Positions 14,707 through 44,003 of a stretch of DNA of 64,000 nucleotides are shown piece after piece. Position numbers and translations under genes: made by a program. Where the stretch lies: contig CP073761.1 of the NCBI GenBank assembly GCA_018399015.1, forward strand, positions 186,001-250,000, given 5' to 3'. Position 1 is the first letter of the stretch. Each line of letters opens with the position of its first letter. The notes under the pieces were generated by a model, which was not told where the DNA came from, searched no databases, and was given only the letters and a program-made list of their open reading frames with translations. The stretch is from Cyanobium sp. M30B3 (GTDB taxonomy: Bacteria; Cyanobacteriota; Cyanobacteriia; PCC-6307; Cyanobiaceae).

Positions 14707-16095
14707 ATGGGCGAGGCGAGCGGCGTCCTGGTGCCGGATGTGGTGACCCAGCAGCTGGAAGTGCTGCTGGAGGCGGGGAACTACGACGGCGCGAAGCTGC
14801 TGCTGCGCCCGGTGCAGGAGGTGGATGCTGCCGAGGCGATCGGCAACCTGCCGCGCACGCTGCAGGCGCTGGCGTTCCGGCTGCTGCCGAAGGACGAGGC
14901 GATCGCGGTGTACGAATACCTGCCGGTGGACGTGCAGCAGACGCTGCTGGAGCGGCTGCGCTCGGGGGAGGTGCTGGAGCTGGTGGAGGCGATGTCGCCG
15001 GACGACCGGGTGCGGTTGTTCGATGAACTGCCGGCGAAGGTGGTGCGGCGCCTGCAGGCGGAGCTGAGTCCGGCGGAGCGACGGGTGACGGCGCAGCTGC
15101 TGGGGTACGCGCCGGAGACGGCGGGCCGGTTGATGACCACGGAGTTCATCGACCTCAAGGAGTTCCACAGCGTGGCCCAGGCCCTGGCGATCGTGCGCCG
15201 CCTGGCCCGGGACACCGAGACGATCTACGCCCTCTACGTGACCGACGGCGCGCGCAAGCTCACCGGCATGCTCTCCCTGAGGGATCTGGTGGTGGCCGAG
15301 CCCGAGGCGCGCATCGGCGATGTGATGACGCGGGAGGTGATCAGCGTGAGCACCGACACCGACCAGGAGGAGGTGGCCCGGGCCATCCAGCGCTACGACT
15401 TCCTGGCGATCCCGGTGGTGGACCGGGAGCAGCGGCTGGTGGGGATCGTGACCGTGGATGACGTGATCGACGTGATCCAGCAGGAGGCCACCCGCGACCT
15501 CTACGCCGCCGGCGCCGTGCAGGCGGGCGATGAGGACGACTACTTCCAGAGCGACCTGTTCACGGTGGTACGCCGGCGGGTGGTGTGGCTGCTGGTGCTG
15601 GTGCTGGCCAACACCCTCACCTTCGCCGTGATGGCCCGCGAAGAGGAGATCCTCACCCGGGTGGTGGTGCTGGCCGCCTTCATCCCCCTGCTGATCGGCA
15701 CCGGCGGCAACGTGGGCGCCCAGAGCTCCACCGTGGTGATCCGGGGCCTCAGCACCCAGCAGCTGCAGGTGAATGGCCGCCGGATCACGGTGCTGCGCGA
15801 GGCGGTGGCGGGGCTGCTGCTCGGCCTGATGCTGCTGGTGGTGGTGGTGCCCTGGGCCTGGCAGCTGGGCGGTGAGCCGATGGTGGCCTGGGCCACGGGC
15901 CTGAGTCTGCTGGCGATTTCGGTGCTGGCGGCCACCGCCGGGGCGGCGCTGCCCCTGCTGTTTGCCCGGCTGGGCTTTGATCCGGCGCTGATGTCGGCCC
16001 CGTTCATCACCACGGTTGTGGATGTGGTGGGGGTGTTTCTCTACCTGCGTGTGGCCCGCCTGCTGCTGCCCGCCCTGGTGGGAGGGGGGACATGA
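14707..16095 (+). CDS. mgtE: Magnesium transporter MgtE, copy 1
   Basis: MgtE is a Mg2+ channel gated by cytosolic Mg2+. The 462-residue protein has the N-terminal superhelical domain (residues ~15-150), paired CBS domains (~155-275, with GDVMTREVISVSTDTDQEE and VGIVTVDDVIDVIQQEAT) and the five-helix transmembrane domain containing the pore motif PLLIGTGGNVGAQSSTVVIR. Copy 2 begins 4 bp before this stop (ATGA overlap), so they form an operon. The N-domain is encoded by a block identical to copy 2, while the membrane domains differ. Confidence 0.94.
   Translation: MGEASGVLVPDVVTQQLEVLLEAGNYDGAKLLLRPVQEVDAAEAIGNLPRTLQALAFRLLPKDEAIAVYEYLPVDVQQTLLERLRSGEVLELVEAMSPDDRVRLFDELPAKVVRRLQAELSPAERRVTAQLLGYAPETAGRLMTTEFIDLKEFHSVAQALAIVRRLARDTETIYALYVTDGARKLTGMLSLRDLVVAEPEARIGDVMTREVISVSTDTDQEEVARAIQRYDFLAIPVVDREQRLVGIVTVDDVIDVIQQEATRDLYAAGAVQAGDEDDYFQSDLFTVVRRRVVWLLVLVLANTLTFAVMAREEEILTRVVVLAAFIPLLIGTGGNVGAQSSTVVIRGLSTQQLQVNGRRITVLREAVAGLLLGLMLLVVVVPWAWQLGGEPMVAWATGLSLLAISVLAATAGAALPLLFARLGFDPALMSAPFITTVVDVVGVFLYLRVARLLLPALVGGGT
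14764..15169 (+). repeat. 406-bp perfect direct repeat, copy A (in mgtE copy 1)
   Basis: By eye, bases 14764-15169 are identical to 16173-16578, with no mismatch or gap, covering residues 20 to about 154 of MgtE. Identity stops abruptly on both sides. A second, shorter block (15286-15407 against 16695-16816) is also identical, and the rest of the CBS region differs by only a few bases. Confidence 0.95.
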
Positions 16096-17489
16096 GCAGC
16101 ACCGCCCTCGGCAACGGCGCGCCGGGCCAGCCCACCCCGGTGGCGGAGCTGGTGGCAGGCCAGCTCAAGGCCCTGCTGGAGGCGGGGAACTACGACGGCG
16201 CGAAGCTGCTGCTGCGCCCGGTGCAGGAGGTGGATGCTGCCGAGGCGATCGGCAACCTGCCGCGCACGCTGCAGGCGCTGGCGTTCCGGCTGCTGCCGAA
16301 GGACGAGGCGATCGCGGTGTACGAATACCTGCCGGTGGACGTGCAGCAGACGCTGCTGGAGCGGCTGCGCTCGGGGGAGGTGCTGGAGCTGGTGGAGGCG
16401 ATGTCGCCGGACGACCGGGTGCGGTTGTTCGATGAACTGCCGGCGAAGGTGGTGCGGCGCCTGCAGGCGGAGCTGAGTCCGGCGGAGCGACGGGTGACGG
16501 CGCAGCTGCTGGGGTACGCGCCGGAGACGGCGGGCCGGTTGATGACCACGGAGTTCATCGACCTCAAGGAGTTCCACACCGCCGAGCAGGCGCTGGAGAT
16601 CGTGCGCCGGCGCTCAGGCAGCACCGAGACGATCTACTCCCTGTACGTGACCGATGGTGCCCGCAAGCTCACCGGCATCCTCTCGCTGCGCGACCTGGTG
16701 GTGGCCGAGCCCGAGGCGCGCATCGGCGATGTGATGACGCGGGAGGTGATCAGCGTGAGCACCGACACCGACCAGGAGGAGGTGGCCCGGGCCATCCAGC
16801 GCTACGACTTCCTGGCCATGCCGGTGGTGGACCGGGAGCAGCGGCTGGTGGGGATTGTGACCGTGGATGACGTGATCGACGTGATCCAGCAGGAGGCCAC
16901 CCGCGACCTCTATGCCGCCGGCGCCGTGCAGGCCAGCGACGAGGACGACTACTTCCGCAGCAATCTGTTTGCCATCGCCCGGCGGCGGGTGGTGTGGCTG
17001 CTGGTGCTGCTGGTGGCCAATTCCGGCACCTCGGCGGTGATTGCCAGCCAGGAGAAGGTGCTGGAGAGGCTGGTGCTGCTGGCTGCCTTCATCCCGCTGC
17101 TGATCGGCACCGGCGGCAATGTGGGCGCCCAGAGTTCCACGGTGGTGATCCGGGGCCTGAGCACCCAGCGCATCCATCAGCTGGGCCTGGGCAAGGCCGT
17201 GGGCCGGGAGGCCCTGGCCGGCGCCCTGCTGGGGCTGCTGCTGGCGCTGGTGGTGCTGCCCTGGGCCTGGCTGAGTGGTGGACCGCTGGTGGCGGGGGCG
17301 GTAGCCGCCAGCCTGCTGGCCATCAGCACCCTGGCCGCCACGGCGGGGGCCAGCCTGCCGCTGCTGTTCGACCGCTTCAATCTGGACCCTGCCCTGATGT
17401 CGGCCCCCTTCATCACCACGATCGTGGACGTGGCCGGGGTGTTCATCTACCTGCAGACCGCCAGCCGCCTGCTGGCCGGGCTGGGCTGA
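16092..17489 (+). CDS. mgtE: Magnesium transporter MgtE, copy 2
   Basis: Second MgtE, 465 residues, with the same architecture as copy 1: N-domain, CBS pair, TM domain with the PLLIGTGGNVGAQSS pore motif. Its start overlaps the copy 1 stop (ATGA). The first ~27 residues and the TM region have diverged from copy 1 (for example the loop after the pore motif reads RIHQLGLGKAVGREALAG instead of QQLQVNGRRITVLREAVAG). MgtE is a homodimer; two co-expressed variants could form heterodimers, but that is inference. Downstream lies a sigma factor gene on the same strand, 67 bp away. Confidence 0.94.
   Translation: MSSTALGNGAPGQPTPVAELVAGQLKALLEAGNYDGAKLLLRPVQEVDAAEAIGNLPRTLQALAFRLLPKDEAIAVYEYLPVDVQQTLLERLRSGEVLELVEAMSPDDRVRLFDELPAKVVRRLQAELSPAERRVTAQLLGYAPETAGRLMTTEFIDLKEFHTAEQALEIVRRRSGSTETIYSLYVTDGARKLTGILSLRDLVVAEPEARIGDVMTREVISVSTDTDQEEVARAIQRYDFLAMPVVDREQRLVGIVTVDDVIDVIQQEATRDLYAAGAVQASDEDDYFRSNLFAIARRRVVWLLVLLVANSGTSAVIASQEKVLERLVLLAAFIPLLIGTGGNVGAQSSTVVIRGLSTQRIHQLGLGKAVGREALAGALLGLLLALVVLPWAWLSGGPLVAGAVAASLLAISTLAATAGASLPLLFDRFNLDPALMSAPFITTIVDVAGVFIYLQTASRLLAGLG
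16173..16578 (+). repeat. 406-bp perfect direct repeat, copy B (in mgtE copy 2)
   Basis: Partner of 14764-15169, spaced 1,409 bp from it. The abrupt edges between identical N-domain/CBS DNA and clearly diverged transmembrane DNA point to gene conversion rather than to one recent whole-gene duplication. Confidence 0.95.
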
Positions 17490-40041: not shown

Positions 40042-40091
40042 GTCCGGCTCTCCCATCCACAGGCGGAGATGGCTCTGTGGCGGGAGATGGC

Positions 40092-40592
40092 TCAGTAGCG
40101 GGAGATGGCGGCCCGGGTTTCCTTCGCGTCCTGCTTGCGGCGCTCCTCGGCCCGCTTGTCGTGCAGCTTGCGGCCCTTGGCCAGCCCCAGGGTGAGTTTG
40201 ATCCAGGAGCCCTTGAGGTGCAGGTTGAGCGGGATCAGGGTGAGGCCCTTCTGCTCGAGCGCCACCCGCAGCCGCTCGATCTCGCGGCGGTGGGCCAGCA
40301 GTTTGCGCACCCGCAGGGGCTCGTGGTTGAAGTAGGCACCGGCGTGGCTGTGGGGCGAGATGTGCACGTTGTGCAGTTGCAGCTCGCCGCCCCGCACCAG
40401 GCAGAAGCCATCGCGCAGGTTCACCTGGCCGGCCCGGATCGACTTCACCTCGGTGCCCAGCAGCTCGATGCCGCACTCGAGGGTTTCGAGGATCTCGTAC
40501 TGGTGCCGCGCGAAGCGGTTGTCCGCCAGCAGGCGGTTGGCGGCATCCCGCTGGGCCCGGGCGGCCAGCTTCTTGGTGCCACCCTTGGCCAT
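40092..40592 (-). CDS. smpB: SsrA-binding protein SmpB
   Basis: SmpB binds tmRNA and brings it to stalled ribosomes for trans-translation. The 166-residue product has [20 protein letters not shown] (in part [13 protein letters not shown]), [40 protein letters not shown] and the basic tail [20 protein letters not shown]. It is divergent from ruvB and convergent with the kinase gene. Confidence 0.96.
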
Positions 40593-40646
40593 CGCTCCCC
40601 GTGCCGCTGTCGTCTCTGGTCCCCGACCCTAGGCAGGTGCCGGTAC

Positions 40647-40700
40647 CCTCCACCCATGGCGCCTCCACCCATGGCGATTGTTTCCATGGCGATTGTTTCC
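40647..40700. repeat. Compound 15-bp tandem repeats at the ruvB start
   Basis: CCTCCACCCATGGCG occurs twice (40647-40661, 40662-40676), and ATGGCGATTGTTTCC occurs twice (40671-40685, 40686-40700). The 15-bp period puts three in-frame ATG codons at 40656, 40671 and 40686. Confidence 0.93.
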
Positions 40701-41783
40701 TCGGGACCGGCTGCAGCGGATGGCCGCGGGGGGGCGGAGGCCAGGTCCACCGTGGCTGGCCCCGGTGGCGGCCCACGCCCGGCGCCGGAACGGCTGGTGC
40801 AGCCGGCCCCTGCCGGTGATGATCCCGAGCCGGGACGGGCCGACACGCTCAGGCCGCGGCGTCTGGCCGACTACATCGGCCAGAGTGAGCTCAAGCAGGT
40901 GCTGGCCATTGCGGTGGAGGCCACCCGCAGCCGCCAGGAGGCCCTCGACCACGTGCTGCTCTACGGCCCGCCGGGCCTGGGCAAGACCACGATGGCGCTG
41001 GTGCTCGCCGAGGAACTGGGCGTGCGCTGCCGCATCGCCAGTGCCCCGGCCCTGGAGCGCCCGCGCGACATCGTGGGCCTGCTGGTGAACCTGGAGCCGC
41101 GGGAGCTGCTGTTCATCGACGAGATCCACCGCCTCAACCGGGTGGCCGAGGAACTGCTCTACCCGGCGATGGAGGACTACCGCCTCGACCTCACCGTGGG
41201 CAAGGGCAGCACCGCCCGCACCCGCAGCATGCCCCTGGCCCCCTTCACCCTGGTGGGCGCCACCACCCGGGCCGGGGCCCTCAGTTCGCCCCTGCGGGAC
41301 CGCTTCGGGTTGATCCAGCGGCTGGAGTTCTATGGCCTCGACGACCTGCAGGCGATCGTTGAGCGGGCGGCCAGGCTGCTGGCGATCGACCTGGACGGGT
41401 CGGCGGCCCTGGAGGTGGCCCGCCGCTGCCGGGGCACGCCGCGGATCGCCAACCGGCTGCTGCGCCGGGTGCGGGACGTGGCCAGCGTGAACGGCGAGGG
41501 CCGCATCGGCGCGGCCCTGGTGGAGCAGGCCCTCAGCCTGCACCGGGTGGATGGCCGCGGCCTCGATGCCCACGACCGGCGCCTGCTGGCGCTGATGCTG
41601 GAGAGCTACGGCGGCGGGCCGGTGGGCCTCGACACCCTGGCGGCCGGGCTGGGGGAGGACCCGGCCACCCTGGAGACGGTGGTGGAGCCCTACCTGCTGC
41701 AGCAGGGCCTGTTGCAGCGCACGCCCCGGGGCCGGCTGCTCACCGAGGCGGGCCGGGCCCACCTGGCGGAGTCGTGGCCGTGA
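40686..41783 (+). CDS. ruvB: Holliday junction branch migration helicase RuvB
   Basis: RuvB is the AAA+ hexameric motor that, with RuvA, migrates Holliday junctions. The 365-residue product has [20 protein letters not shown], Walker [20 protein letters not shown], Walker [11 protein letters not shown], sensor 1 [20 protein letters not shown] and the C-terminal winged helix ([20 protein letters not shown]). ATG 40686 is chosen because picocyanobacterial RuvB starts MAIVSS; the 15-bp repeat supplies two extra in-frame ATGs upstream (MAPPP and MAIVS versions). A ~50-residue low-complexity N-terminal extension precedes the core. Confidence 0.95.
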
Positions 41784-42613: not shown

Positions 42614-42625
42614 ACCGCCACAGCC

Positions 42626-42676
42626 CAGCCACCCCAAAGCCGCAGCCACCCCAAAGCCACAGTCACGCCTAAGCCA
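42626..42676. repeat. 17-bp tandem repeat, about three copies
   Basis: CAGCCACCCCAAAGCCG at 42626-42642 is repeated with one change at 42643-42659 and, more diverged, at 42660-42676. It fills the gap between the TPR gene and the amidohydrolase gene. Confidence 0.85.
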
Positions 42677-42700
42677 CCGCTTCCGGTTTCCGGCCCTGCG

Positions 42701-43987
42701 ATGCCGTCCCCCCCTCCACCACCACCCATGCCCGCCGCCACCGCTGGCGCTGACGCGGGCGCTGGGCGTGGGATCTGCTGGTGGCAGCTGGGGCTGGAGG
42801 GGGATCTGGAGGCGTTCCTGCCCGAGCTGATCCAGCTGCGCCGCCACCTGCACCGCCACCCCGAGCTCAGTGGCCACGAGCAGCAGACGGCCGCCCTGGT
42901 GGCCGGCGAACTGCGCCGCTGGGGCTGGGAGGTGCGCGAGGGGGTGGGGCGCACCGGGGTGGTGGCGGAACTGGGCCCCCGCTGCCTGCCGGACGGCCAG
43001 CCGGCGCCGTTGCTGGGCCTGCGGGTGGATATGGATGCCCTGCCGGTGGAGGAGCGCACCGGTCTCGACTACGCCTCCACCGTGCAGGGGTTGATGCACG
43101 CCTGCGGTCATGACCTGCACACGAGCGTCGGCCTGGGGGTGGCCGGCGTGCTGGCCTCCCTGGCCAGGCGGCGACCCGATCTGCTGCGGGCACGGGTGCG
43201 GCTGCTGTTTCAGCCCGCCGAGGAGACGGCCGAGGGGGCGGCGTGGATGAAGGCTGACGGGGCGACCGAGGGGCTCGATGCCCTGTTCGGGGTGCACGTG
43301 TTTCCCTCGATTGCGGTGGGCGAGGTGGGGGTGCGCAGCGGCAGCCTGACGGCGGCGGCGGGGGAGCTGGAGATCGAGGTGCTGGGGGAGAGCGGCCACG
43401 GCGCCCGCCCCCACCAGAGCACCGACGCGATCTGGATCGCGGCGCGGGTGGTGAGCGGCCTGCAGGAGGCGATCAGCCGCCGGCTGGATGCCCTCCATCC
43501 TGTGGTGGTGAGCTTCGGGCGGATCGAAGGGGGCAAGGCCTTCAATGTGATCGCCGACCACGTGCGTCTGCTGGGCACGGTGCGCTGCCTCGATCTGGAG
43601 CTGCACGACCGTCTGCCGGCCTGGATCGAGGACACCGTGCACGCCCTCTGCCGGGGCCATGGTGGAGAGGCTCGGGTGCGTTATCGCCGCATCTCGCCGC
43701 CGGTGCACAACGACCCGGAACTCACCCAGCTGGTGGCGGCGGCGGCGGTGGATCTGCTGGGCCGCCCGCGGGTGCACTGGCTGGAGCAGCCCTCCCTGGG
43801 CGCCGAGGATTTCGCCGAGCTCAGCGATGGCATCCGCTGCACGATGTTCCGGTTGGGGGTGGCCGGACCCCAGGGCTGCACCCCCCTGCACAGCAACACC
43901 TTCGCCCCCGATGAGGGGGCCCTGGCTGTTGGCGTGCGGGTGCTGAGCCTCAGCCTGCTGCGCGCCGCACCGATGAGCCCCCGATGA
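42701..43987 (+). CDS. M20-family metal-dependent amidohydrolase
   Basis: A 428-residue N-acyl-L-amino acid amidohydrolase/IAA-amino acid hydrolase-type peptidase. Metal ligands sit in LGLRVDMDALPVEE, LMHACGHDLHTS, FQPAEETAEGAAWM, FGVHVFPS and a late THTF-like LHSNTFAPDE. The lid/dimerisation domain contains SGHGARPHQSTDAI. It likely hydrolyses N-acylated amino acids; the substrate is unknown. The N-terminal ~25 residues (Pro-rich) are not part of the fold, and ATG 42728 is an alternative start. Confidence 0.9.
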   Translation: MPSPPPPPPMPAATAGADAGAGRGICWWQLGLEGDLEAFLPELIQLRRHLHRHPELSGHEQQTAALVAGELRRWGWEVREGVGRTGVVAELGPRCLPDGQPAPLLGLRVDMDALPVEERTGLDYASTVQGLMHACGHDLHTSVGLGVAGVLASLARRRPDLLRARVRLLFQPAEETAEGAAWMKADGATEGLDALFGVHVFPSIAVGEVGVRSGSLTAAAGELEIEVLGESGHGARPHQSTDAIWIAARVVSGLQEAISRRLDALHPVVVSFGRIEGGKAFNVIADHVRLLGTVRCLDLELHDRLPAWIEDTVHALCRGHGGEARVRYRRISPPVHNDPELTQLVAAAAVDLLGRPRVHWLEQPSLGAEDFAELSDGIRCTMFRLGVAGPQGCTPLHSNTFAPDEGALAVGVRVLSLSLLRAAPMSPR

Positions 43988-44003
43988 GCCCCCGATGAGC
44001 CCC
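43973..44003. repeat. 11-bp tandem repeat spanning a stop/start junction
   Basis: ATGAGCCCCCG at 43973 and 43984, with a third copy (9 of 11 bases) at 43995. As 11 is not a multiple of 3, the three ATGs lie in three frames. Copy 1 encodes the last residues of the amidohydrolase, copy 2 holds its TGA, and copy 3 provides the start of the next gene. Confidence 0.92.

Follow-up and report, generated by a model that had tools for sequence, protein, structure and literature searches.

The window analysed here, a stretch of 64,000 nucleotides, corresponds to positions 186001-250000 of contig C1 of the 3.18-Mb single-contig genome of Cyanobium sp. M30B3 (G000). It harbors the DNA-repair gene ruvB, the product of which was identified as the Holliday-junction helicase by matches over the AAA+ body to TIGR00635 (433.6 bits, cut-off 299.05, residues 69-371) and PRK00080 (482.7 bits, cut-off 282), next to the divergently oriented smpB gene (Table 1). 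In the 63-bp spacer between the two genes (40593-40655), inspection by eye gave two putative -10 elements, arranged back to back and 12 bp apart. At such a short distance the divergent promoters probably overlap, and they may exclude each other. The sequence CGACCCTA on the side of the smpB -10 element recurs in many start regions of the family, as judged by eye rather than from a count.

The 5' end of ruvB carries two tandem duplications with a unit of 15 bp, the second overlapping the first. TRF found both to be perfect, which confirms the observation made in the sequence-only reading that overlapping 15-bp repeats provide ruvB with three in-frame ATGs; these are in frame with each other and with the TGA stop codon at 41781-41783. 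The same reading had assigned a similar upstream context to each ATG, which holds for one pair: ATG1 and ATG2 agree over 9 nt upstream and over 6 nt counted from the A. ATG2 and ATG3 agree over 2 nt before the codon and over 15 nt counted from the A, and for ATG1 and ATG3 the corresponding lengths are 2 nt and 6 nt. An assembly error is unlikely, given the single-contig genome and the independent occurrence of duplication 1 in the sister species (G007); duplication 2 is known from this one assembly.

Table 1. Features of the smpB-ruvB region, in coordinates of the window
Feature	Position	Strand	Remarks
smpB	40092..40592	-	divergent neighbour, 166 aa; NCBIfam TIGR00086, 161.3 bits (cut-off 119.1)
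putative smpB -10 (TAGGGT)	40626..40631	-	33 nt before the smpB ATG; assigned by eye
putative ruvB -10 (TACCCT)	40644..40649	+	within GGTACCCT (40642-40649); 6 nt before ATG1
duplication 1, CCTCCACCCATGGCG x2	40647-40661, 40662-40676	+	40647-40676, period 15, 2.0 copies, 100% (TRF); present in sister species G007 too
ruvB	40656..41783	+	375 aa from ATG1; 365 aa from ATG3
ATG1	40656..40658	+	spacing to -10 as in relatives; predicted mRNA 5' end and main start, from a putative TSS
N-terminal tail, residues 1-63 from ATG1	40656..40844	+	predicted disordered (AlphaFold2)
duplication 2, CCATGGCGATTGTTT x2 plus CC	40669-40683, 40684-40698, 40699-40700	+	40669-40700, period 15, 2.1 copies, 100% (TRF)
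ATG2	40671..40673	+	21 nt from -10
ATG3	40686..40688	+	36 nt from -10; homologue of the MAIVSS start by downstream coding sequence

Spacing of the -10-like element and the ruvB start in the family

Start regions of ruvB were collected from 104 loci of the family, which represent 83 distinct regions when repeated 60-base regions are counted once. In all 83, a TANNNT hexamer precedes the promoter-linked ATG by 6 or 7 nt (N6 in 73, N7 in 10). Variation in the hexamer is confined to its three middle bases, with the first T, the A and the final T constant throughout; at other spacings from 0 to 29 nt the motif occurs just twice in these regions. Thirty of the 104 loci were chosen through the GGTACCCT pattern, and the count was redone without them. 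The remaining 74 loci, picked by protein hit alone and spanning 33 genera by our own tally, gave the same spacings in 68 of 68 distinct regions (58 N6 and 10 N7). The exact pattern GGTACCCT-N{3,6}-ATGGCNATNGTNTCNTC matches 98 of 400 family genomes, with a gap of N6 in every match listed. The other 302 genomes have no exact match; 42 loci sampled beyond the pattern (sets of 20 and 22) all have TANNNT at N6 or N7, including 22 of 22 in one of the sets. Within the genus, GGTACCCT-N-ATGGCNATNGTNTCNTC is found in 10 of 13 genomes, the exceptions being the present genome, G007 and G010. No ruvB was found in G010, where the one weak match is of the strength expected for a distant paralogue.

Leaderless (TA-led) bacterial genes are described as having a TANNNT whose first T is located ca. 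12 bp upstream of the start codon (PMC3160421). The ruvB regions agree with this description, the first T being located at 12 (N6) or 13 (N7) in 83 of 83 cases. The gene in the window also has this signature, with the TACCCT hexamer about 12 bp upstream of ATG1 from its first T, and none of seven Shine-Dalgarno-like words occurs within 20 nt upstream of ATG1, ATG2 or ATG3, in line with a leaderless gene. The conserved spacing predicts that the ruvB mRNA is leaderless. In this genome the -10-like element and the N6 spacing belong to ATG1 only. The first transcribed base, which for a sigma-70 promoter we take to be the seventh past the last T of the -10 element, would be the A of ATG1.

Other roles for the upstream sequence were considered. 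A duplicated promoter is rejected, as GCG instead of TAC stands before the second copy of unit 1, so that the -10-like hexamer was not copied. Neither is GGTACCCT a general promoter of this genome: GGTACCCT-N0..20-ATG is found at ruvB and two other places, and the backwards control gave 6. A LexA box was also rejected. The half-site RGTAC of the cyanobacterial LexA boxes described in PMC3091678 is present within GGTACCCT, but without the second half, DGTWCB, as seen by comparing GGTACCCTCCACCC by eye with the consensus RGTACNNNDGTWCB. In that study a high-scoring LexA site at ruvB is limited to five high-light strains of Prochlorococcus (PMC3091678). The conservation of GGTACCCT exceeds what a -10 element needs, and part of it may therefore be a protein site.

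History and frequency of the duplications

The number of start ATGs is one in 81 of the 83 distinct family regions, two in sister species G007 and three in the present genome. Only ATGs from the promoter-linked one up to MxIxSS enter these numbers; additional in-frame ATGs occur in several regions, either ahead of the promoter-linked ATG or farther into the tail. The single-start relatives show GGTACCCT-N6-ATG with a MAIVSS start, or a TANNNT variant thereof; those of the genus have the GGTACCCT form. The start region of G007 is GGTACCCTCCAACCATGGCGCCTCAACGCATGGCGATTGTC, with the first ATG at N6 and with copies of duplication 1 that are 12/15 identical. Duplication 2 is missing in G007 and in the rest of the other 82 distinct start regions read. 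A tree based on the RuvB body without the tail (21 of 22 rows; G073, of 248 aa and cut by the fetched stretch, was left out) groups G000 and G007 as sisters with support 95/89. The simplest history would thus place duplication 1 before the split of these two species and duplication 2 after it, in the line of the present genome. Both copies of unit 1 in this genome match single-start congeners (e.g. G008 and G006), so the changes in the G007 unit are probably derived.

The proposal that repeat number can change the count of possible starts without a frameshift is borne out between species, with one, two and three ATGs in related genomes, each species being represented by one genome. N-terminal variants are likewise real by species, at the level of sequence. 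A constant repeat number in all relatives, which had been named as the observation that would speak against the proposal, is not what the relatives display.

Perfect tandem duplications of 10-60 bp are numerous in this genome. In 464 kb there are 31, a number in which duplication 2 is merged with duplication 1 due to their same period and overlap, versus 3 in an equally long sequence from one order-3 Markov simulation. The corresponding numbers per 400 kb in congeners are 8 (G005), 24 (G011) and 16 (G008), with 1 to 4 per simulated sequence. Hypermutability specific to this genome was rejected as the main story, since congener densities are comparable, as illustrated by the 24 duplications in 400 kb of G011. 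Mutations of this kind are ordinary in the genus, and what is unusual about the ruvB repeat is its location. Crude gene calling over 1.264 Mb placed 41 of 86 perfect duplications outside called genes, 38 inside and 7 at an edge. Of those outside, 22 of 41 also have a length that is a multiple of 3, which makes the fact that both ruvB duplications are multiples of 3 weak evidence for the use of ATG1.

Initiation of translation at the multiplied start

We propose that the ruvB start, which is conserved, fixed relative to the promoter and probably leaderless, underwent two in-frame tandem duplications of 15 bp, one after the other. The -10-like element was left uncopied, and transcription would begin at the A of ATG1 (40656), with ribosomes loading on this 5'-terminal AUG. 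The N6 spacing to ATG1 together with the uncopied -10 element makes main initiation at ATG1 most likely. Structure prediction for an mRNA that begins at AUG1 gives this codon as the most open of the three AUGs. The product would be a RuvB protein with 10 extra residues before MAIVSSG, attached to a disordered tail of variable length. The duplications would have been tolerated because they kept both the -10/ATG1 spacing and the reading frame. AlphaFold2, run on an alignment of 14 RuvBs, gave pLDDT values below 50 for residues 1-63 and of at least 90 for 233 of the 375 residues. The tail ahead of the YIGQ motif varies between species, from 46 to 104 codons among the regions compared, and ten further residues in a tail of this kind are likely tolerated. 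The effect of the addition is probably near-neutral, rather than a means of tunable initiation. To the account as a whole, comprising successive duplications, a leaderless start at ATG1 and a tail that is 10 residues longer and most likely near-neutral in effect, we assign a probability of about 0.62. The sequence-only reading appears half right in this respect. Its in-frame change of copy number exists between species, but the starts seem non-equivalent: the -10-like element and its spacing are tied to ATG1 alone, which points to the 5'-most AUG instead of tunable or equivalent initiation.

The position of ATG2 was compared with the distances between TANNNT and the first ATG in this genome. 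Among 753 first-ATG starts from 1.264 Mb, 13 have the motif at 5-7 nt, 10 have it at one of the thirteen spacings from 8 to 20, and 44 at one of the four spacings from 21 to 24. These statistics are crude, with genes delimited by a simple GC-by-codon-position filter and the start taken as the first in-frame ATG; ruvB itself is missing from the listed genes with 5-7 nt. Four congeners pooled (859 starts, orthologs included) gave 13 at 6-7 nt, 15 at 8-20 nt and 62 at 21-24 nt. The control motif TNNNAT occurs 7 times at 6-7 nt, 39 times over 8-20 nt and 22 times at 21-24 nt, as compared to 10, 10 and 44 for TANNNT. The control lacks the gap, which is thus particular to TANNNT; the rise at 21-24 nt is partly a matter of general A+T-richness, as the control rises too. 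The near-empty gap at 8-20 nt and the sharp step at 21 nt suggest that leaders in this genus are mostly absent or at least ca. 15 nt long. The ruvB ATGs are 6, 21 and 36 nt from the -10 element, duplication 1 having carried ATG2 across the gap to exactly 21 nt. Chance is a fair explanation of this match, as 7 of the 31 duplications measure 15 bp, a length second in frequency to one other.

The same numbers allow for dual or shifted initiation, with an mRNA starting at ATG1 on which ribosomes also or mainly use ATG2. The first copy would then serve as a 15-nt leader and the gene would be in the course of a shift from leaderless to leadered. We consider this unlikely. The step in the TANNNT distribution at the spacing of ATG2 agrees with it, as does the local sequence of ATG2, which within the 9 nt before the codon and the 15 nt from its A departs from that of single-start congeners by a single T/C difference. 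Against it, the 21-nt distance can be chance, as noted, no Shine-Dalgarno-like word precedes ATG2, and the third base of this codon is mostly paired in the predicted fold (unpaired probability 0.38). Furthermore, a 5'-terminal ATG or GTG is reported to be necessary and sufficient for leaderless initiation in mycobacteria (PMC4633059). A bolder version, in which duplicating the initiation region leads from leaderless to leadered translation, seems to us quite unlikely. The old 5'-terminal AUG with the codons after it would, through duplication 1, have become the shortest leader allowed for a second AUG, with the spacing going from 6 to 21 nt in agreement with the two spacing classes of this genome, and G007 and the present genome would be living intermediates that form two RuvB proteins per mRNA.

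Use of ATG3 as the sole start, with the upstream ATGs and the duplications as inert leader, is improbable. It would preserve the N-terminus common in relatives, as MxIVSS forms the start at the 62 loci read and, in the 14-RuvB alignment, a majority of the rows that extend to this point start with MAIxSS, several rows being cut at the match start. A longer N-terminus may thus come at a cost, to the advantage of a start further downstream. However, ATG3 is 36 nt from the -10 element, has just 2 nt upstream in common with the other ATGs, and its third base is predicted to be paired (unpaired probability 0.08). A contingency (phase-variable) locus, at which repeat number within a population tunes the dose or N-terminus of RuvB, is very improbable: the copy number does vary between related species (1; 2 in G007; 3 in G000), but extra copies occur in 2 of 83 distinct regions only, those of G007 have diverged to 12/15 and are no longer identical, the array is short with about two copies, the duplication density is ordinary for the genus, and the in-frame 15-bp units switch neither the frame nor the promoter spacing, which stays 6 between -10 and ATG1.

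Relation to known systems and other repeats in the window

In-frame short tandem repeats or VNTRs at the 5' ends of genes are a known class. The ruvB duplications resemble these in being perfect, a multiple of 3 in length and different in copy number between lineages. Unlike VNTRs, the ruvB repeats have about two copies each and are nested, the unit includes the start codon, and the differences shown are those between species. In the open-licence literature we found nothing on tandem duplication of start codons or on leaderless mRNAs with an additional AUG, and nothing that joins ruvB, smpB and leaderless expression.

According to the survey of start signals in PMC3160421, many cyanobacterial genomes use neither SD-led nor leaderless genes, and their start mechanisms are largely unknown. 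Compared with that survey, the present case concerns one ortholog that keeps a leaderless geometry across the start regions read in a cyanobacterial family, with the start codon multiplied in two species. For Synechococcus elongatus UTEX 2973, 19 TSSs at the start codon are reported, a minority class (PMC6091082). The predicted ruvB mRNA would likewise belong to a cyanobacterial minority with the TSS at the start codon, in another cyanobacterium; ruvB is absent from the main text of PMC6091082 on leaderless transcripts. Leaderless mRNAs are likely present in Prochlorococcus MED4 as well, where they may start on 70S ribosomes, and the main text on these mRNAs also does not include ruvB (PMC5607370).

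If the ruvB mRNA is indeed leaderless, its geometry is uniform in all 83 distinct regions read in a cyanobacterial family, and the natural series with one, two and three starts would offer a test of how ribosomes choose among close AUGs at a 5' end. If it is not, the locus offers one further in-frame duplication tolerated in a disordered tail.

A second start codon multiplied by a tandem repeat, in this case out of frame, is located at 43970-44003. The 11-bp unit CCGATGAGCCC is present there in 3.1 copies, at the end of an ORF (42701-43987) that by eye is a candidate amidohydrolase-like gene, and the repeats put three ATGs in three different frames beside a called coding start at about 43995. 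Imperfect tandem arrays are found at gene junctions at 42618-42677 (17 bp x 3.6) and 40065-40109 (18 bp x 2.5). On a larger scale, the region of ca. 14750-17250 contains a tandem gene-scale duplication, in which a block of ca. 14750-15850 recurs 1,409 bp downstream; the identity is 89% over 900 bases and reaches 100% in several steps of 100 bases.
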